DNA of 64,000 nt from Gemmatimonadota bacterium. Lineage in GTDB: Bacteria > Gemmatimonadota > Gemmatimonadetes > Gemmatimonadales > Gemmatimonadaceae. The number at the start of each line of letters is the position of its first letter. The first letter of the stretch is position 1. The DNA lies in the NCBI GenBank assembly GCA_028287235.1, contig JAQBQB010000022.1, positions 62,001-126,000 on the forward strand, read 5' to 3'. The notes under the pieces are model-generated. The model was not told the origin of the DNA. It did not search any database and was given only the letters and a program-made list of their open reading frames with translations. The position numbers and the translations under genes were made by a program. Below, piece after piece: positions 12,524 to 23,128 of the stretch.

Positions 12524-12539
12524 CGCGACGATCGCGCTA
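12521..12539. terminator. Hairpin covering both stop codons of a convergent pair
   Basis: Perfect 8-bp stem TAGCGCGA / TCGCGCTA with a 3-base loop. The left arm starts with the TAG stop of the ATP-grasp gene and the right arm ends with the stop (CTA on this strand) of the convergent flippase. There is no T-tract. Confidence 0.45.
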
Positions 12540-14054
12540 CACGGACACGACGCCCGCCTCCGGCTGCACGACGATGTCCGGTGAATCTTCGCCGCCATCG
12601 CCCGACCCGCGAACGAGTTGGATGAATCGCTGCATGCGCGACCAGTAGCGCAAGCGGATCACGGCGAGATAGGTGAGCGCACCCACAGCGACCTCGCAGG
12701 CGAAGCGTACGGCGAGAGGCAGGGTCTCTGGCATCGCGACGCGAGCCGCGACGACCATCACCGCCATGATCAGCGACGCCGCGATAGGAGGCCAAAGCGT
12801 GCGTGCGTACGTTCTCGCGTCGAGATCGATCAATCGGAACACCGCGCGATACGACGGATAGCTGGCGATCGGAAACCCGACGATCCACGCGGCGGCGACA
12901 CCGGACGTTCCCCAGTGCGATCCGAGGTAGAAGAGCGGTGCCAGCACGGCGAGCGAGAAGAGCGTGTATTTGAGATCGCTCTTCGCGTGTCCGGTCGCGA
13001 CGAGCATCGGCGAGATGACAGTTGCAATCGCGCGAAATCCGCCGTAGAAGGCGAGCAGGCGCAGCGGACCAATGGCGCCGGCGTATCTCGGTCCGATCGC
13101 AAGCAACACGAAGTGGTCGGCGGTGAGCGCCATGCCGGCGGCCAGGGGAAGTGCGACGAAGGCGAGTCCTTCACTCAAGCCGAGACAGTAGCGGCGTAGC
13201 CCCTCGCGGTCGTTCTGCACGCGCGAGAGTACGCTGGGAATGACGCGCGCGATGAGAGAGCTGATGCGATCGACCGGAATCGTGGCCAGCGTCCAGCCGA
13301 ACTCGTAGGCACCGAGGGCAGCTTTGCCGAGGACGCGGCCGACGATCGCGAAGTCGGCGTTCGAGTAGGCGTAGGTTCCGACGCGTGATAGGGCGACGTT
13401 CCACCCAAATGCCGCCTCGCCGGCGATGCGACGGAACTGCGTGGGCCAGGTGATGCGGTGCGGCGCCCACGCCAGCGCGAGCAGCGTGGTGACCGTCGAG
13501 CTGATCAATGCGGCGTAGGCGAGCGACCAGTAGCGATAGCCCATCATCGCGAAAGCGATCGTGGTGACGGTGAGCGAAATCGATTGCAGGCCGTCGATCC
13601 ACGCGAGCTTCTGGAACTCGAGCCGCCGCGCCATCAGCGCACGCGGCAGCATCTGCGGCGCGGTGATCAGGTAGGCGACGCTCAACAGCATGATGATGCG
13701 CGCCACTTCCGACTCCTTGTAGAACGCGGCGACGAGCGGAGCGAGCAACACCGAGACGAGGGAGAAGCCGAAGCCGTAGATCAACGACAGTCCGCCAAGT
13801 CGCGCGATTTTGTCGTCGGTGAGGTCGTGGCGCTGAACGATCGCCGCACTGACGCCGAGATCGTAGATGGGCGCGACGAATCCTGTGTAGACGAGCGCCA
13901 TGCCGTAGAGGCCGTAATCCCCGGGGCTCAGTAGGCGAACGATGAGCAGCGTGGAGGCCCAGCTTACGATCTGCGTCGCCCATTTCATTCCGGCGGTCCA
14001 AGCCACGCCATGGATCAATGAACGGTCGAGTGACGAGCGTTGCGACGTAGTCAC
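12537..14054 (-). CDS. Lipopolysaccharide/EPS flippase (Wzx-type, MOP superfamily)
   Basis: 505-aa polytopic membrane protein with about 12-14 helices. N-terminal GVAWTAGMKWATQIVSWAS, then LLSPGDYGLYGMALVYTGF and DLGVSAAIVQR are typical of MOP-superfamily polysaccharide transporters. It should flip the undecaprenyl-linked repeat unit across the inner membrane. The start chosen is the GTG at 14054, just before TTSQRSSLD; a longer open frame reaches 14261 but would overlap the start of the divergent GT4 gene and adds a non-conserved leader. It is on the opposite strand from the flanking EPS genes. Confidence 0.88.
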   Translation of the reverse strand: MTTSQRSSLDRSLIHGVAWTAGMKWATQIVSWASTLLIVRLLSPGDYGLYGMALVYTGFVAPIYDLGVSAAIVQRHDLTDDKIARLGGLSLIYGFGFSLVSVLLAPLVAAFYKESEVARIIMLLSVAYLITAPQMLPRALMARRLEFQKLAWIDGLQSISLTVTTIAFAMMGYRYWSLAYAALISSTVTTLLALAWAPHRITWPTQFRRIAGEAAFGWNVALSRVGTYAYSNADFAIVGRVLGKAALGAYEFGWTLATIPVDRISSLIARVIPSVLSRVQNDREGLRRYCLGLSEGLAFVALPLAAGMALTADHFVLLAIGPRYAGAIGPLRLLAFYGGFRAIATVISPMLVATGHAKSDLKYTLFSLAVLAPLFYLGSHWGTSGVAAAWIVGFPIASYPSYRAVFRLIDLDARTYARTLWPPIAASLIMAVMVVAARVAMPETLPLAVRFACEVAVGALTYLAVIRLRYWSRMQRFIQLVRGSGDGGEDSPDIVVQPEAGVVSV

Positions 14055-14126
14055 AGAGACGCATTGAGCAAGTGTGTGGCCAGCCGAAGCAGAGGGAGTG
14101 CTCGCTTCTTGCTCATTGGGTCGCCG

Positions 14127-15254
14127 ATGTCCACTGAATTTCGAATCGTGCACGCAATCACACCGGCCGAAGTGGGCGGCCTCGAGACGGCCGTTCGTCT
14201 GTTGGCATGCGGGCAACGCGAGCGCGGCCATTCGGTGCATGTGCTCGCGACCGTGGACCACGGCGGAGCGGAGTCAGCGGTTCTTGCGGCGTTGCGCGCG
14301 AGCGGAGTGCCGGTAACCACGATCGTCGCGCCCGGGCGCGCGTATCTGCACGAGTGGCGCGCGGTGGGCTCAGCGCTGGCGGCGCTTCAGCCGCATGTCT
14401 TACACACGCACGGCTACCGCGCCGATCTGCTCGCCGGAAGCGTCGCGCGCCGAGCAAATGTGCCGACGGTGACGACGCTGCACGGCTTTGTCGGTGGGGA
14501 TTGGAAGCTTCGGTTGTACGAGCAATTGCAGCGGCGCTCGCTTCGGCGGTTCGACGCGGTGGTGGCGGTGTCGACGCGTATGCGCGATGAGCTCAGCTAC
14601 CGCGTCGATGCGAAGCGATTCCACGTCATCCCAAACGCGTTCGCGCCGAGTGGAACGGCGCTGTCGAAGCAGGAGGCGCGGAGCAGGCTTGGAATCGCCG
14701 ACGGCGAGTTCCATCTCGGATGGATAGGCAGGCTGAGTCACGAGAAGGGGCCCGATGTGATGATTCGTGCGCTCGCGAGCAACGGTGCGCGTGACGCGCA
14801 CCTGTCGGTCATCGGCAACGGGGTCGAGCGGCAGCGCGTCGAACAGCTCGTGGCCGAGCTCGGGTTGGCGCAGCGCGTGACGTTCCACGGTGTTCGCCAG
14901 GACGCCGGAGCGCTGCTCGCCGCGTTCGACGGCGTCGTCCTGAGCTCGCGCAGCGAGGGTACTCCGATCGTGCTCCTCGAGGCAATCGCGGCGGGAGTTC
15001 CGGTGATCGCCACGTCGGTCGGTGGAATTCCTGAGGTGGTGCAGGCCCCGCATGCGCTCGTGGTTCCTCCCGAAAATCCCGCGGCGATTGCGGCGGCGAT
15101 TGCGGCGTTGGAATCGGATCCGGCGGCCGCGACGGAGCGGGCCAGCCGCGCGCTGGGGCGGCTGCGCGAGCGGTATGCGATAGGGCCGTGGGTGGCGGAA
15201 TACGATCGTGTGTACGACGGCGTCACGACGGGCGTAACCCGGATGGTCGCATGA
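14127..15254 (+). CDS. GT4-family glycosyltransferase
   Basis: 375-aa GT-B fold enzyme. Seen: HAITPAEVGGLETAVRLLACG (acceptor glycine loop), VLHTHGYRADLLAG near residue 91, LGWIGRLSHEKGPDVMI near residue 195, and SRSEGTPIVLLEAIAAGVPVIA near residue 273 (donor-binding). Start ATG at 14127 lies directly before the first beta strand. It overlaps the next gene by ATGA. Likely EPS repeat-unit assembly. Confidence 0.9.
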   Translation: MSTEFRIVHAITPAEVGGLETAVRLLACGQRERGHSVHVLATVDHGGAESAVLAALRASGVPVTTIVAPGRAYLHEWRAVGSALAALQPHVLHTHGYRADLLAGSVARRANVPTVTTLHGFVGGDWKLRLYEQLQRRSLRRFDAVVAVSTRMRDELSYRVDAKRFHVIPNAFAPSGTALSKQEARSRLGIADGEFHLGWIGRLSHEKGPDVMIRALASNGARDAHLSVIGNGVERQRVEQLVAELGLAQRVTFHGVRQDAGALLAAFDGVVLSSRSEGTPIVLLEAIAAGVPVIATSVGGIPEVVQAPHALVVPPENPAAIAAAIAALESDPAAATERASRALGRLRERYAIGPWVAEYDRVYDGVTTGVTRMVA

Positions 15255-16483: not shown

Positions 16484-17692
16484 CTAGTGGCCGGTGCGCT
16501 TGAAGAACATCACCAGCGGCGTCTGCATCATGATGCGAAGGTCCTTCATGACGCTCCGATGGCGGAGGTACTCGAGATCGTACTTCACCTTCGCCCTCAC
16601 GTCCTCGATCGACGTGTCGTAGCTATGGCGAATCTGCGCCAAGCCGGTGATGCCCGGACGCGTACGCTGGCGGATCGGATAGTACGCAATGCACTCGACG
16701 AGATTTGGAATGATCGTCGGACGTTCGGGGCGCGGGCCTACGATGTTCATGTCGCCGCGAAGCACGTTGTAGAGCTGCGGGAGCTCGTCGAGGCGGCACT
16801 TCCGAAGGAAGCCGCCGATCGGTGTGACGCGCGGATCCTGTTTCTGCGCCCACACGGCACCGGTGCCGGACTCGGCGTCCACGCGCATCGTGCGGAACTT
16901 GAACATCGTGAACGTTTCGCCGCAGGTGTTCCAGGTGCGCCGATCGTGCACCGCGTTGGCGATCTTCCGCCGGCGCGCCTCGCCCGCGGCAAGCACGGCC
17001 TCCACGCTCAGGCCGTTGCGGCGGTCGCGATCGCGCCGGCGCTCGATTGCGACGGCGCTTTCGTAGACGCGGCGTCCGGCGTCCGTCTGGCGTGCGCGCT
17101 CACGTGCAGAAACCCCAGTGGCGCGCGCGGTCGACCGGCTAACGCGCTGCCCCTTCGCGCGCCGGCTGCTCGCTGTCCGGCGCTCCGCGGGCGACAGGAG
17201 GTCGTAGCGCCGCCGGTCGCGGCCGACGCGTACTTGCTTGTAGACCACCGGCCCCGGCGACGTCAGTCGAACCGCGATCGCGATGATCAGCATGACCGGC
17301 GACAGCAGCACCAGCGCGACGGCGGCGATAGCGACGTTCAGCGCGCGTACCGACCGTCCATTTCGAGGACGACATCTCCGGTCGAGGAAGAGCACCGCAT
17401 CCTGTGCGCTCTGCGGCTCCGTTGGTTGCGGGCGTTGCGCGTGCTGCGCGGATTGTGCGGATTGTGCGGATTGTGCGTCCAGCATGAGTGTGCCGCCGCC
17501 CGCGCCGGACACGGTGGAAACTGTCTCGGTCGTACTCGCCGCCACACCGGCGACGGACAGCGGACTCAGGGACTGTGACTGAGCGACGAGCTCGGAGGAT
17601 TCTATCGCGGGCGAAACAACTCGCGTAACAGGGGCACTCGGCCGGGCTCGGCGCATGCGCGCGAAGTGAAAACTCTGTGCTGCGGGGTTCAT
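16484..17692 (-). CDS. Initiating sugar transferase (polyprenyl glycosylphosphotransferase) with a large insert
   Basis: 402-aa bacterial sugar transferase that should move a sugar-1-phosphate to undecaprenyl phosphate and so start repeat-unit synthesis. Seen: Gln/Ser/Ala-rich N-terminal tail (to about 112), one re-entrant/TM helix (about 116-142), SPGPVVYKQVRVG at 145-157, FTMFKFRTMRVDAE at 261-274, LRKCRLDELPQLYNVLRGDMNIVGPRPE, and RPGITGLAQI. Unusual: about 100 Arg-rich residues (about 160-257) lie between the QVRVG strand and FTMFKFRTM, which are normally almost adjacent. AGGAG at 17699-17703 supports the ATG start. Transcribed with the Wza-like gene upstream of it. Confidence 0.9.
   Translation of the reverse strand: MNPAAQSFHFARMRRARPSAPVTRVVSPAIESSELVAQSQSLSPLSVAGVAASTTETVSTVSGAGGGTLMLDAQSAQSAQSAQHAQRPQPTEPQSAQDAVLFLDRRCRPRNGRSVRALNVAIAAVALVLLSPVMLIIAIAVRLTSPGPVVYKQVRVGRDRRRYDLLSPAERRTASSRRAKGQRVSRSTARATGVSARERARQTDAGRRVYESAVAIERRRDRDRRNGLSVEAVLAAGEARRRKIANAVHDRRTWNTCGETFTMFKFRTMRVDAESGTGAVWAQKQDPRVTPIGGFLRKCRLDELPQLYNVLRGDMNIVGPRPERPTIIPNLVECIAYYPIRQRTRPGITGLAQIRHSYDTSIEDVRAKVKYDLEYLRHRSVMKDLRIMMQTPLVMFFKRTGH
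17450..17480 (-). repeat. 9-bp in-frame tandem repeat coding QSA units
   Basis: Three copies of a 9-base unit (CGGATTGTG on the + strand) inside the sugar-transferase gene. They encode a Gln-Ser-Ala triplet repeat (about residues 74-83) in the unstructured N-terminal tail. Confidence 0.75.
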
Positions 17693-17743: not shown

Positions 17744-18523
17744 TCAGAAAATTCTGGTCCCGCCGTACAGACTGACCAACACCGCGGCGACATACGCGCC
17801 GGTGCGAATCCAGTCTCCCCAATCGCGCTTGGACTGCTCGGCGACGTTGATCTCATCGCCTGCGCGCAGATCCAATTGGTCCACGGTGGCACCCGTCGCC
17901 ATCTCCTGGCGCAAGCGCTTGGGCTTCCAGATTTCCTTTCCATTGCGGCGGATCGTCGTCTCGCCGACGTTGGCCACCGGTGACGGCCCACCCGCGCTCA
18001 TGATGGCGTCGCTGACGAGCATGTCCGGCCGAACCGAATAGAATCCCGGCTTGGCGACCGCGCCGGAGACTTGCACGCGAAGCAACGGGTGCGCTTCCAC
18101 CGCCGGATTCACGACGTACCGCCCAATCTGCTTGGCGAGATACGGCGTGAGCTCGGACCAGAGCACGCCTGAGAGCGGTATCTGTCCGATGTCGGGAAGC
18201 TCGAGCACGCGTCCGCCGCGTACCGTGAAGGTATCCGTGAGCGCGGGCACGTTCGCGACGCGCACGGCGACGCGATCGCCGACGTTGAAGTCGCCATCGC
18301 GTAGACGCTCGCGAATGCTCGTGAGCTGCGCGACGTTCTCTTCCCATACTTTGCGATCGCCGGTGTTGCGCGCGGCGGCGTCCGCTGCCGACGCCCGTGA
18401 CTCGAGGGAAGTGCGCGTGGCGAACGGCGCTTCGGTACGTGATTGCGCGCGTGCAGTCGAGCCCGCGAGTGCACTCGCTGCAAGGCACAAAGAAGCAATC
18501 CGTCTCGATCCGCGCGTCGTCAT
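17744..18523 (-). CDS. Polysaccharide export protein (Wza-like, Poly_export and SLBB domains)
   Basis: 259-aa outer-envelope export protein. A signal peptide ends ...STARA before Gln. The polysaccharide-export domain covers about residues 75-145 (GDFNVGDRVAVRV, FTVRGGRVLELPDIG, IPLSGVLWSEL), followed by an SLBB domain (VQVSGAVAKPGFYSVRPDMLVSDAIMSAGG, about 151-180) and a C-terminal hydrophobic stretch. It lacks a lipobox Cys, unlike classical Wza. Divergent from the tyrosine-kinase gene, with a CRP-like palindrome in the shared upstream region; followed by the sugar transferase 51 bases downstream. Confidence 0.9.
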   Translation of the reverse strand: MTTRGSRRIASLCLAASALAGSTARAQSRTEAPFATRTSLESRASAADAAARNTGDRKVWEENVAQLTSIRERLRDGDFNVGDRVAVRVANVPALTDTFTVRGGRVLELPDIGQIPLSGVLWSELTPYLAKQIGRYVVNPAVEAHPLLRVQVSGAVAKPGFYSVRPDMLVSDAIMSAGGPSPVANVGETTIRRNGKEIWKPKRLRQEMATGATVDQLDLRAGDEINVAEQSKRDWGDWIRTGAYVAAVLVSLYGGTRIF

Positions 18524-18582
18524 TTCGTTGTGTTCAATCGGGATGTTTTGAGAACGTGATCAATGCACGGCGCATACCAACG

Positions 18583-18600
18583 GTGTGATCGCAGTCACAC
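18583..18600. promoter_or_regulatory. Perfect CRP/FNR-family palindrome between divergent EPS genes
   Basis: GTGTGATCGCAGTCACAC: exact TGTGA-N6-TCACA half sites, extended by one more G/C pair. It lies in the 159-base region between the Wza-like gene (start 18523, minus) and the Wzc-like kinase gene (start 18683, plus). It matches the consensus bound by CRP-type activators (CRP, Clp, Vfr) and could control both directions. Confidence 0.6.
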
Positions 18601-18682
18601 GAATTGGCCGGAGACTTGCCTCAAGTGGAGTTCGTCGCGGAGACGATCTTCGCGGCGACGTGGCCGCTCATCCCATCGCTGT

Positions 18683-21082
18683 ATGTCTGGACACCTGGTG
18701 CCATCGAACCGGCGCACCGCGCCGGCCCAAGCCGATCACAGACAACTCGCACAATCGTCGTGGCCGGAGCCACCACGCGGGCCCGCTGCACCCGCGGCGA
18801 GTCACGGATTCCAGTGGCGTCGCTATGCCGACGCCGTGCGTCGGCACCGATGGTTGGTGCTCGCGCTCGCATTCGTCGGCATTGGAGCCGGTTGGGTCGC
18901 CAGCCGATACGTGAAGCCGCAGTACGAGGCGCACATCTCGATCTGGATTCCGGCCGAGGACCGAACGCAGCAGACTGCACCGATCGGCGGCGCGCGCGTG
19001 CTCGATGCCGCGGGGTGGGCCGATCTCACGACGAGCTACGCGGTGCTCGACAAGGTGGCGATCGAGAACGGGCTGCTCGCCGGCACGACGGATACGTCGA
19101 AGCAAGCGGCGTTCGCCAATTTCCACACAAGTGACAAGCTCGTCCCGGGGCAGTACACGCTCACATTCACGAACGGTGGTCAGCGCTATACACTGACGCC
19201 AGTGCGCGGTACGCCGGAGTCCGGCGCGGTCGGTGATTCAATTGGACGCTCGTTTGGATTCCTCTGGGCGCCAACCGCTCGCCAGCTCGGAACGTCGAGC
19301 CCCATCGATTTCAACGTCATCACGCCGCGCCAGGCCGCGACCTACCTGCGGCAGCGACTCACCGTGGCGCTCTCCGATTCGAGCTTCATCGTCGCGCGCC
19401 TTCGCGGGCCGAACCCCGAGCGTGACTCGAAGATCTTGAATACGCTCGGACGCGAAGTGATCGCAACGGCGACGAGCCTGAAGCAACACAACGGCACGCA
19501 GGTGCTCAGCACACTGCAGACTCAGCTCACCGACGCGAGCGGAGCGCTCAGATCGTCGGAGGACGTGCTCAATCGTTTCCGGACGAACGCCATCACGCAG
19601 CCGTCGGAACAGTCGATCACCGACGCGATGCGCGACCCGACGGCGTCGCAATACTTTTCGTCGTCCGCCGCGCGGGACAGCCTCAAGAACGATCGCGAAG
19701 CGTTGGAGCGTGTCGTCGCGAGCGCGCGCACGCAACCGATCGACGTGGGCGCACTCCTGTCGATTCCGTCGGCGCGCAGCGCACCGGAGCTCACGGCGGC
19801 GATCGCGGAACTCAACAAGGCCGACTCCACCTATCAGGGCATGCGCCGGCAATTCACCGCAGACTATCGTCCCGTGAAGGATGTCGAGGGCCAGATCACG
19901 CGGCTCAAGACGCAGACGATTCCGCAGATCGCCAGCCATATCCTCGGTCGCCTGCAGACGTCGCAGATGCAATTCGCCACGCGCGCCTTCGACGCGCAGC
20001 GAAAGCTGCAGGCCATTCCGTCGCGCACGCTCGAGGAAGCGCGACTTCGCCGCGACGTGGCGACGAGAGAGAATCTCTACAACACGCTCAAGTCGCGCGT
20101 CGACAACTCGCGCATGGCGCAGCAAAGCTCCGTTGCCGAAGCGAGTGTGCTCGACAGCGCCGTCGCGCCGACGCAGCCGGTGGGCAATACGCGGCCGTAC
20201 TTCCTCGTCGTGAGCGTGCTGGTCGCGCTCGCGCTGGGCGTCGGCGTCGCACTGGTGCTCGATCGCTTCGATCCCAAGATTCGCTATCCCGAGCAGGTGG
20301 GCGAGCTCGGGCTGCACTTCCTCGCGGCCGTTCCGCACATGAATGGAAGCGTGGAAATCGATCACTCGGCGGAGGAAGCCGCGCAGGCCGTGGAGTCGTT
20401 CCGAACGCTGCGGTTGAATCTCCGACACCAGCAGCCCGGAGCCGACGCGGTGCAGCTCACGGTGACGAGCCCCGGCGCGTCGGAAGGGAAGTCGCTTCTC
20501 GCCGCGAACCTCGCGCTGTCGTTCGCCGAGGCGGGATATCGCACCCTGCTGATCGACGGCGACATTCGGCGCGGCCGGCAGCACGAGACGTTCGGCGCCA
20601 GCATTCAGCCGGGGCTCACCGATTTCCTCGCGGGCAACGCGCGCGCGGACGAGATCGCGCGTCGCTCCACGCATCCGAATCTGCTCGTGATTCCGTCGGG
20701 CTCGCGCGTGGGGAGCGGGCCGGAATTGCTGATGTCGCCGGAGCTCCCGCGCCTCCTCGCCGCGGTGCGTCCACTCTTCAACGCGATCATCGTGGACAGC
20801 GCGCCACTCGGCGCCGGCGCCGATGCGCTCGCGCTCGGCGCCGCCACCGGAAACGTGATGCTCGTGTTGCGGGCTGGGTCGACCGAGCGCCGCATGGCGG
20901 AATCGCGCATCTCGCTGCTGCGGCAGGCGCCAATCCGGGTACTCGGCGCGGTGCTCAACGACATCGGCGCAGCGGCGGTCTACGACGAATACAGCTACAT
21001 CGAGGGCTACTACGTTCCGGTCGCCCACGAGTCTGTGCCGACCGAGGTGTTGCCGGCACACGTCCAAGTGCAGGGGGACTGA
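18683..21082 (+). CDS. Wzc-like chain-length regulator fused to bacterial tyrosine kinase
   Basis: 799-aa inner-membrane protein. TM1 about residues 53-72, a long periplasmic coiled-coil Wzz/GNVR-like region, TM2 about 505-526, then a cytoplasmic BY-kinase domain: Walker A SPGASEGKS about 595-604, Walker A' TLLIDGD about 620-626, Walker B AIIVDSAP about 699-706. The C-terminus has a Tyr cluster (YDEYSYIEGYYVP, about 768-780), the usual autophosphorylation tail. It controls polymer length and couples to the Wza-type exporter. Start taken at the ATG 18683; the frame is open to 18563 but that part overlaps the palindrome region. Three bases before the GrpE-like gene. Confidence 0.9.
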   Translation: MSGHLVPSNRRTAPAQADHRQLAQSSWPEPPRGPAAPAASHGFQWRRYADAVRRHRWLVLALAFVGIGAGWVASRYVKPQYEAHISIWIPAEDRTQQTAPIGGARVLDAAGWADLTTSYAVLDKVAIENGLLAGTTDTSKQAAFANFHTSDKLVPGQYTLTFTNGGQRYTLTPVRGTPESGAVGDSIGRSFGFLWAPTARQLGTSSPIDFNVITPRQAATYLRQRLTVALSDSSFIVARLRGPNPERDSKILNTLGREVIATATSLKQHNGTQVLSTLQTQLTDASGALRSSEDVLNRFRTNAITQPSEQSITDAMRDPTASQYFSSSAARDSLKNDREALERVVASARTQPIDVGALLSIPSARSAPELTAAIAELNKADSTYQGMRRQFTADYRPVKDVEGQITRLKTQTIPQIASHILGRLQTSQMQFATRAFDAQRKLQAIPSRTLEEARLRRDVATRENLYNTLKSRVDNSRMAQQSSVAEASVLDSAVAPTQPVGNTRPYFLVVSVLVALALGVGVALVLDRFDPKIRYPEQVGELGLHFLAAVPHMNGSVEIDHSAEEAAQAVESFRTLRLNLRHQQPGADAVQLTVTSPGASEGKSLLAANLALSFAEAGYRTLLIDGDIRRGRQHETFGASIQPGLTDFLAGNARADEIARRSTHPNLLVIPSGSRVGSGPELLMSPELPRLLAAVRPLFNAIIVDSAPLGAGADALALGAATGNVMLVLRAGSTERRMAESRISLLRQAPIRVLGAVLNDIGAAAVYDEYSYIEGYYVPVAHESVPTEVLPAHVQVQGD

Positions 21083-21085
21083 GCG

Positions 21086-21949
21086 ATGCCAGATATCGAG
21101 CAGGAGCGCAACATATCCGGGATTGTGCGACAGATCCCGATATCGGACGAAGCCGAGTTCGACGACGTCCTCGACACGCCGAGCGATCTGCTCTCGGCCT
21201 GGCAGGGTCAGGTTCGCGGGCTGGCGGATCATCCACCCGTGAACGCCGACGACAATGCCACGTCGATGCTCGCGCAGCTTCGCGTCGTGGCCGACGACCT
21301 TGCGCGCCCGGCGTCCCGCTCCGCTCGCACCAAGCTGCTGACGACGGGCGAGCAGGAGCTCCCGATCGTATCGCTCGACGATGCGTCGAACGACACGCCA
21401 ACCGCGGCGGTGTTCGACATCAGCGGCATACAGCGCTCGATCGAAGACGCACAGCGGCGCATCGAATCGACCCTCACGAACAGCGAGAGTCGGCTCGCCG
21501 CCGCGTTCAACCAAGCCCTGACCGGCCTCGCCGACCGGACGAGCAGCGCGCACGAGTCACTGCTCGCCGACATGCGAAGCCAACTCGCCGAAGCGCGCGA
21601 GCAGATCGACGGCGAAAGCCGCGGTGCGCTCCAGCGCGCCATCGGCATGCTCTCGGTGCTCGAATCGCTGGACGACGTCGTTGCCTCGGTGAACGGGCGC
21701 GCCGACGACGCGTCGATCGGCCGCATTCAGCGTTTCGAGCGCGAAGCACGCGCGATGGCGCAGTTGGTCGAGCTCGAGGAGATCCCGAGTGAGGGCGCCG
21801 TCGATCCCGACCTGCACGAGATCGTGTCGACGGTGGGCGGAACGGCGCGCGCCGGCTCGATCGTCGAGGTGCGGCAGCGCGGCTATACATTCCGCGGCCG
21901 CGTCGTACGTCCGGCGCAGGTCGTCGTGTCTGCCCGCGGCAAAGCCTAG
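21086..21949 (+). CDS. Coiled-coil protein with GrpE-type C-terminal domain
   Basis: 287-aa protein, no signal peptide. Residues 1-110 are acidic and poorly structured; about 115-190 are strongly helical/coiled-coil (SIEDAQRRIESTLTNSESRL and following). Residues about 195-220 (AIGMLSVLESLDDVVASV) resemble the GrpE helix that precedes the beta domain, and residues 230-287 match the GrpE beta domain: GAVDPDLHEIVSTV, a short acidic-poor turn, then IVEVRQRGYTFRGRVVRPAQVVV. GrpE is the nucleotide-exchange factor of DnaK/Hsp70. Here it starts 3 bases after the Wzc-like kinase, so a DnaK partner tied to EPS export or an adapted scaffold is possible. It overlaps the convergent epimerase by 4 bases. 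The domain call is from motif reading and needs profile confirmation. Confidence 0.75.
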   Translation: MPDIEQERNISGIVRQIPISDEAEFDDVLDTPSDLLSAWQGQVRGLADHPPVNADDNATSMLAQLRVVADDLARPASRSARTKLLTTGEQELPIVSLDDASNDTPTAAVFDISGIQRSIEDAQRRIESTLTNSESRLAAAFNQALTGLADRTSSAHESLLADMRSQLAEAREQIDGESRGALQRAIGMLSVLESLDDVVASVNGRADDASIGRIQRFEREARAMAQLVELEEIPSEGAVDPDLHEIVSTVGGTARAGSIVEVRQRGYTFRGRVVRPAQVVVSARGKA

Positions 21950-22995
21950 GCGGGCACGGCGGTCTTGGCCGGAACGAGGTTTTCGGCGTACCACTCGACC
22001 GCGGATTGCAGACCCGTTTGCACGCTGTATCGCGGCGCGAAGCCGAGGTTGTCAGCCGCCTTCGCGATGTCGGCGCGCGAGTGCCGGATGTCGCCACTGC
22101 GGAACGGTTCGAACAGCGGTTCACGCGCGGCAAGCTCCGGACGCTTCTCGGCCAGCGAGTCGCGAATCAGCGCGAACAGCTCGGTGAGACTCGTCGGGTG
22201 TGCCGAGCCGATGTTGTACGCCGTGCCCGTGACGTCTCCTTCGTCGACCACCGAGGCGAGAATGTTCGCCTGCACGACGTCGTCGACGTAGACGAAGTCG
22301 CGAGTCGTCGCGCCGTCGCCGTAGATGCGACAGGGCTCATCGAGCAACAGGTTTCGCATCCACGAAGGGATGACCGCCGCGTACGCGCCATCCGGATCCT
22401 GGCGCGGCCCGAAGACGTTGAAGTAGCGCAGACCCACGGTGTTGATGCCGAACGCGCGCTGGTACACCGCGGCGTACAGCTCGTTGACGTGCTTTGTGAC
22501 CGCATATGGCGACAGGGCGCGCAACTCACTCTTCTCCTGCTTCGGAGTGCCGGGTGCGTCGCCGTACATCGCACACGACGACGCATAGACAAAACGCTTT
22601 GCCCCCGCATCGCGCGCCGCCGTCAGCATGTTCACGAAGCCGTCGACGTTCGTGCGGTTGACCGCGATTGGATCTTCCATGGAACGGGGAACGGAGCCGA
22701 TCGCCGCCTGATGGATCACGTAGTCCATTCCACGACAGGCATCCTGACAGGCGGACAAGTCCTCGATGTCGCCGCGAATCATTCGGAAGGTGCCGCCGCC
22801 GCCTTCGCTCTCGGCAACCGCCTGATCGACGTTGCGTTGATAGCCGCTGGAAAAATTGTCGAGGCCGACAACGTCCTGACCAAGCTCGAGCAACGTCTTC
22901 GTGATGTTTGACCCGATGAACCCGGCAGCGCCCGTGACCAACCATCGACGCGGATTGGCGCGCAGCTCTGCGCACACTGACTCATAGCGATTCAC
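21946..22995 (-). CDS. NAD-dependent UDP-sugar 4-epimerase (WbpP/Gne-like)
   Basis: 349-aa extended short-chain dehydrogenase. Seen: GAAGFIGS nucleotide loop near residue 22, LDNFSSGYQRN, ASSCAMYGD and the catalytic PYAVTKH (YxxxK), then LRYFNVFGPRQDP and FRSGDIRHS. This pattern fits UDP-N-acetylglucosamine/UDP-glucuronate C4 epimerases of the WbpP/TviC type, which supply EPS precursors. The start chosen is the GTG at 22995 with an excellent GGGAGGAAG 2-3 bases upstream; an earlier in-frame ATG at 23109 would add a non-conserved leader. It ends on a CCTAGG shared with the GrpE-like gene stop. Confidence 0.92.
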   Translation of the reverse strand: MNRYESVCAELRANPRRWLVTGAAGFIGSNITKTLLELGQDVVGLDNFSSGYQRNVDQAVAESEGGGGTFRMIRGDIEDLSACQDACRGMDYVIHQAAIGSVPRSMEDPIAVNRTNVDGFVNMLTAARDAGAKRFVYASSCAMYGDAPGTPKQEKSELRALSPYAVTKHVNELYAAVYQRAFGINTVGLRYFNVFGPRQDPDGAYAAVIPSWMRNLLLDEPCRIYGDGATTRDFVYVDDVVQANILASVVDEGDVTGTAYNIGSAHPTSLTELFALIRDSLAEKRPELAAREPLFEPFRSGDIRHSRADIAKAADNLGFAPRYSVQTGLQSAVEWYAENLVPAKTAVPA

Positions 22996-22997
22996 GA

Positions 22998-23006
22998 CTT
23001 CCTCCC
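22998..23006 (-). promoter_or_regulatory. Strong RBS fixing the epimerase start
   Basis: GGGAGGAAG on the minus strand directly before the GTG at 22995. This supports the short start over the upstream in-frame ATG. Confidence 0.7.
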
Positions 23007-23128
23007 GTTGCCGGACAACGTCGCGCGAATGATGACGCGCGCCGTACCATTCACCGTGTCGAATGCAATTGTGATTCCTATCACCGTTACGCTTTACAAC
23101 CGCTCCCAACCGCGCTTAGCCTTATCCG

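Follow-up and report, generated by a model that had tools for sequence, protein, structure and literature searches.

GrpE resets the Hsp70 chaperone and is familiar as an exchange factor that stands alone. Bacterial GrpE (PF01025), as in the structures from E. coli (1DKG), T. thermophilus (3A6M) and M. tuberculosis (8GB3), combines a long helix, a helical bundle and a beta domain. The major DnaK contacts of E. coli GrpE lie in the four-helix region (PMC10825016). In the M. tuberculosis protein, a helix patch (R64, N71, R73, K74, R75 and R78) is required both for viability and for binding to DnaK, and its mutation abolishes that binding (PMC10803776). In Myxococcus xanthus, the Hsp70 homologues StkA and SglK act in EPS or fibril production (PMC4319316, PMC8265645), and GrpS is a second GrpE-type protein in one genome (PMC10313047, PMC8265645, PMC4319316). 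In another instance, DnaK of B. subtilis was identified as a substrate of the BY-kinase PtkA; this is a kinase-substrate relation, and the abstract describes no GrpE-like partner of the kinase (PMC4835898). Eukaryotic BAG-domain proteins join an Hsp70-binding module to diverse targeting modules (PMC4753570). Within the titles, abstracts and selected passages searched, no description of a Wzc-linked or CpaF-fused GrpE domain was found.

The window (the whole stretch of 64,000 nucleotides analysed, from the genome designated G000) carries a polysaccharide-export locus in which a gene for a GrpE-fold protein directly follows that for a Wzc-type kinase (Table 1). Glycosyltransferase and polysaccharide deacetylase genes are also present in the locus. 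The kinase scores 130 bits with TIGR01007, over the cut-off, and carries a GNVR domain, an SEGKS P-loop and a C-terminal YDEYSYIEGYY cluster. Its translation probably begins at residue 41 of the longest open reading frame, an internal ATG (MSGHLVPS); the first 40 residues of that frame (18563-18682) have no counterpart in the protein of a sister species, G144. The downstream gene opens with an ATG 3 bases after the wzc stop, as had been noticed from the sequence alone, in an operon-like arrangement.

Table 1. Features of the polysaccharide-export locus and of the wzc-linked GrpE-fold protein (window coordinates).
Feature	Position	Strand	Basis
Polysaccharide flippase (Wzx-type)	12537..14261	-	Pfam Polysacc_synt_3
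Bactoprenyl-sugar transferase (Bac_transf)	16484..17692	-	Pfam
Wza-like SLBB polysaccharide export protein	17744..18523	-	Pfam Poly_export, SLBB
Wzc-type chain-length determinant / tyrosine autokinase	18563..21082	+	TIGR01007, domain and motif reading
wzc-linked GrpE-fold protein, 287 aa	21086..21949	+	Pfam GrpE 57.4 bits; ORF
N-terminal conserved motif, residues 33-78 (DLLxxWxxxxxxL...LRxVADDLxR)	21182..21319	+	Two alignments; common to three orthologs
Stalk helix, residues 112-202	21419..21691	+	Model pLDDT about 95; motif scan
Second helix of GrpE-type bundle, residues 208-227	21707..21766	+	Model
GrpE beta domain, residues 230-282	21773..21931	+	Pfam, model, Foldseek
NAD-dependent sugar epimerase/dehydratase, convergent with the GrpE-fold gene	21946..23109	-	Pfam

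The Pfam GrpE profile matches the protein with an E value of 1.8e-15, well over its cut-off of 25.8 bits, across residues 145-282 (profile positions 23-164 of 165), and the protein likewise matches the sequences of the solved GrpEs of T. thermophilus, E. coli and G. kaustophilus. Against the NCBIfam GrpE equivalog models, it reaches 43 bits at best where 164 are required, and its score lies far under every equivalog cut-off listed. A monomer structure model, computed from an alignment of 29 GrpE homologues, attains a pLDDT of at least 90 in 162 residues and consists of one long stalk helix, a second helix and a beta domain. The first 11 PDB matches returned by Foldseek for this model were all GrpE chains. 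The VIA-align Z score was 13.7 for human GrpEL1 and 13.2 for E. coli GrpE, values near 13 being attainable by chance for helical models; above Z 8, only GrpEs match, covering the helix and the beta domain jointly. Because the alignment included canonical GrpEs, this fold test is not fully independent, and a model from the single sequence was poor (pLDDT 48). The GrpE-type fold of the protein, proposed in the sequence-only reading, and the linkage of its gene to wzc are established.

The N-terminal two thirds of the protein had been read as a novel extension. This description stands for residues 1-111, which have no known relatives and no Pfam match, RsbRD_N (PF14361) included; the GrpE-like part, however, begins earlier than supposed. 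As the Pfam match starts at residue 145 and the modelled stalk at 112, the extension without known relatives amounts to about residues 1-111 together with a lengthened stalk. Within it, the conserved N-terminal motif is modelled as low-confidence helices. An RsbRD_N origin of the N-terminus was a weak lead and was not accepted. Its one sign is a weak resemblance of the N-terminal motif to a histidine kinase with an RsbRD_N domain in G375 (L160:478-1668).

G000 encodes three GrpE-type domains. One is a canonical grpE on contig C28 (129 bits), another belongs to the wzc-linked protein, and the third forms the C-terminus of a CpaF/T2SSE ATPase of 653 aa on contig C16 (L037:7620-9581). The window gene is thus an extra copy, as anticipated, and its being the sole grpE of the genome is ruled out. 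A profile match, a GrpE fold and a further grpE, the three points on which the sequence-only reading had staked its assignment, were all found. The CpaF fusion belongs to a Tad pilus locus, where secretin and CpaE/TadZ-like genes immediately precede it; G144 has a fusion of the same kind (L038:8144-10093; 60% identical), and the CpaF of G312 is without a GrpE domain. A search of G000 for an extra DnaK, which had been suggested as a check, found none: there is one DnaK, and the other PF00012 match reads as MreB.

Among six genomes sampled from the genus, the wzc-linked gene occurs in three (G000, G144 and G395). G144 holds all three GrpE types, its wzc-linked homologue being 484 aa long, and the gene order bac_transf / SLBB / wzc / GrpE-like / epimerase / glnA is identical in G000 and G144. 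In G395, a Wzc with 74% identity is followed by a 290-aa gene that retains the N-terminal motif and the helical region; this product has no Pfam match and lacks the beta domain seen in the other two proteins, although an assembly error could account for the loss, as the G395 assembly is fragmented. No GrpE-like gene stands beside the more distant wzc of G312 or beside the additional wzc-like genes in G000 and G144. Conserved linkage to the kinase gene thus held up in three species. A phylum-wide pairing did not: in the family, represented by 179 genomes, a single genus has the pair, and only G000 and G144 passed 1e-16 with a profile of the divergent GrpE domains. Strong matches to the N-terminal motif came only from G000, G144 and G395. 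The extra gene directly after wzc and the sister copy of its domain fused to CpaF suggest the attachment, within a single genus, of a chaperone-type domain to export machines. The CpaF-GrpE fusion, the wzc-linked gene in sister species, the beta-domain loss, the genus restriction, and the divergent clade and patch loss described below are new with respect to the sequence-only reading.

In a phylogenetic tree, five divergent GrpE domains form one group (support 100/97) separate from 66 other GrpEs. This group takes in the wzc-linked proteins, the CpaF-fused domains and a member from G379 that lies beside an extra Hsp70 gene; given several long branches, its exact placement and internal order are unsure. 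Compared with bacterial GrpE, the window protein shares the overall architecture, a significant sequence match and the core motif of the beta domain, but it lies outside the canonical clade, is encoded beside wzc, lacks the N.RKR patch, adds the N-terminal motif and a long stalk of variable length, and has one ortholog without the beta domain. All six patch positions defined for the M. tuberculosis protein are present in the canonical GrpE of G000; the wzc-linked protein has none of them, or a single one if the alternative register is used. A motif scan of the stalk found no canonical AExxNxRKR, and the N.RKR patch is absent from every member of the divergent clade, that of G379 included. With a 20-residue profile of the patch region, canonical Gemmatimonadota-type sequences score at least 44 bits and the divergent members between -16 and -3; for shuffled copies of the window protein, the 95% point lies at -7 bits, and the window protein itself scores near this background. 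Since the G379 member also lacks the patch but adjoins an Hsp70 gene, patch loss alone is compatible with an Hsp70 partner. The beta-domain core (Q264, R265, G266, Y267, R275, V279 and H244) is kept, together with the helical bundle, the region of DnaK contact in E. coli GrpE. Comparison of G000 with G144 gives a dN/dS of about 0.35 in the beta domain, near the other parts of the gene; the helical part has about 0.28 and wzc about 0.16. These values are rough, since dS exceeds 1.

From these observations, the reading favoured here, to which we would give a probability of roughly 0.4, is that the window protein is a Wzc partner built on a divergent GrpE scaffold that would dock DnaK at the kinase with which it is co-encoded. 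By analogy with known GrpE structures, the protein would dimerize through its helical bundle, and the N-terminal motif and variable-length stalk may anchor it to the Wzc export complex. The beta domain and helical bundle would then serve as a docking site for the single DnaK of the cell, bringing the chaperone to the kinase; among the possible outcomes are that DnaK remodels the Wzc oligomer or drives its cycling, or that it comes within the kinase's reach. Such a protein would act as an adaptor in the manner of BAG proteins, with an Hsp70-binding and a targeting module, rather than as a general exchange factor; the likeness lies in this proposed logic only, as BAG proteins are eukaryotic and of unrelated fold, and Hsp70 binding is for the window protein a proposal. 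This reading is supported by the GrpE match and fold, by the gene order shared by G000 and G144 and the persistence of the gene beside wzc in G395, and by the same domain ending CpaF in two species. The single supported clade with its Hsp70-adjacent member, the retained beta-domain core with its dN/dS of about 0.35, and the presence of only one DnaK also fit. Precedents are PtkA with DnaK (PMC4835898) and StkA and SglK (PMC4319316, PMC8265645). The present case differs from the M. xanthus proteins in that no Hsp70 gene is linked and the adjacent gene encodes the Wzc kinase itself. Against the reading stand the retention of at most one of six patch positions and the beta-domain loss in G395. 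A separate clade of such domains, with one encoded next to a polysaccharide-export kinase and another joined to a pilus ATPase, would imply that bacteria can target or re-use the fold of an Hsp70 cofactor at particular export machines. The fused domain would provide equivalent DnaK docking at the Tad pilus ATPase. Rather doubtful is the wider proposal of a bacterial counterpart of the BAG adaptors, in which a GrpE-derived Hsp70-docking domain on envelope export ATPases (Wzc, CpaF) would deliver DnaK to the chosen machine.

Almost as likely as a docking partner is a protein that uses the GrpE fold as a dimeric coiled-coil scaffold for Wzc, or as its modulator, and plays no part in Hsp70 action. 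In this view, the work would fall to the N-terminal motif together with the helical bundle, and the beta domain would be dispensable or a re-used protein-interaction surface. This is what the disappearance of the DnaK-binding helix motif from all members would lead one to expect, as would the G395 protein, which has shed the beta domain and kept the N-terminal motif and helical region. The length range of the orthologs (287 to 484 aa), due chiefly to the coiled-coil stalk, and the lack of an extra DnaK point the same way. A pure scaffold is harder to reconcile with the joining of the same domain to CpaF, kept in two species, with the clade member that adjoins an Hsp70 gene although it likewise lacks the patch, and with the retained four-helix region, the site of major DnaK contacts in the E. 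coli work (PMC10825016). The sequence-only reading had offered a dedicated Hsp70 cofactor or a repurposed GrpE fold. The former, in the strict sense, is not sustained in view of the single DnaK, the missing helix motif and the beta-domain loss in G395; the latter, serving the kinase, fits about as well as docking. Patch loss and the beta-domain loss in one species provide a natural test of which parts are important to the kinase.

A role as a canonical exchange factor is unlikely. A second, fully functional GrpE, supporting nucleotide exchange on DnaK generally and placed in the EPS locus by happenstance, would account for the above-threshold Pfam match and the GrpE fold, but it is an improbable reading for a protein that coexists with a canonical grpE, scores far below the equivalog cut-offs, has lost the key helix patch and has kept its wzc linkage in three species. 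Least probable is a decaying duplicated or acquired grpE without a present role, next to wzc by chance, for although the patchy occurrence in the genus (3/6 genomes) and the beta-domain loss in G395 would suit it, the gene has an open frame and coding-type codon bias in three species, a dN/dS of about 0.3 to 0.35 between G000 and G144, and a conserved N-terminal motif.

Beyond the genus, a first scan of genome contigs found no relatives elsewhere. In a sample of 395 genomes from the phylum, G000, G144 and G379 gave the strong matches to the profile of the divergent GrpE domains. In G379 (L045:6397-10112), the divergent GrpE gene is flanked on one side by an extra Hsp70 gene (452 bits) and on the other by a gene that matches TPR weakly, possibly an accessory Hsp70 system in another family. 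Two matches each to the same profile were recorded in G031, G065, G116 and G333. A second scan of genome contigs returned 36 loci, of which those inspected resemble ordinary grpE; at two of them, L119 and L122, a dnaK-like gene adjoins grpE.
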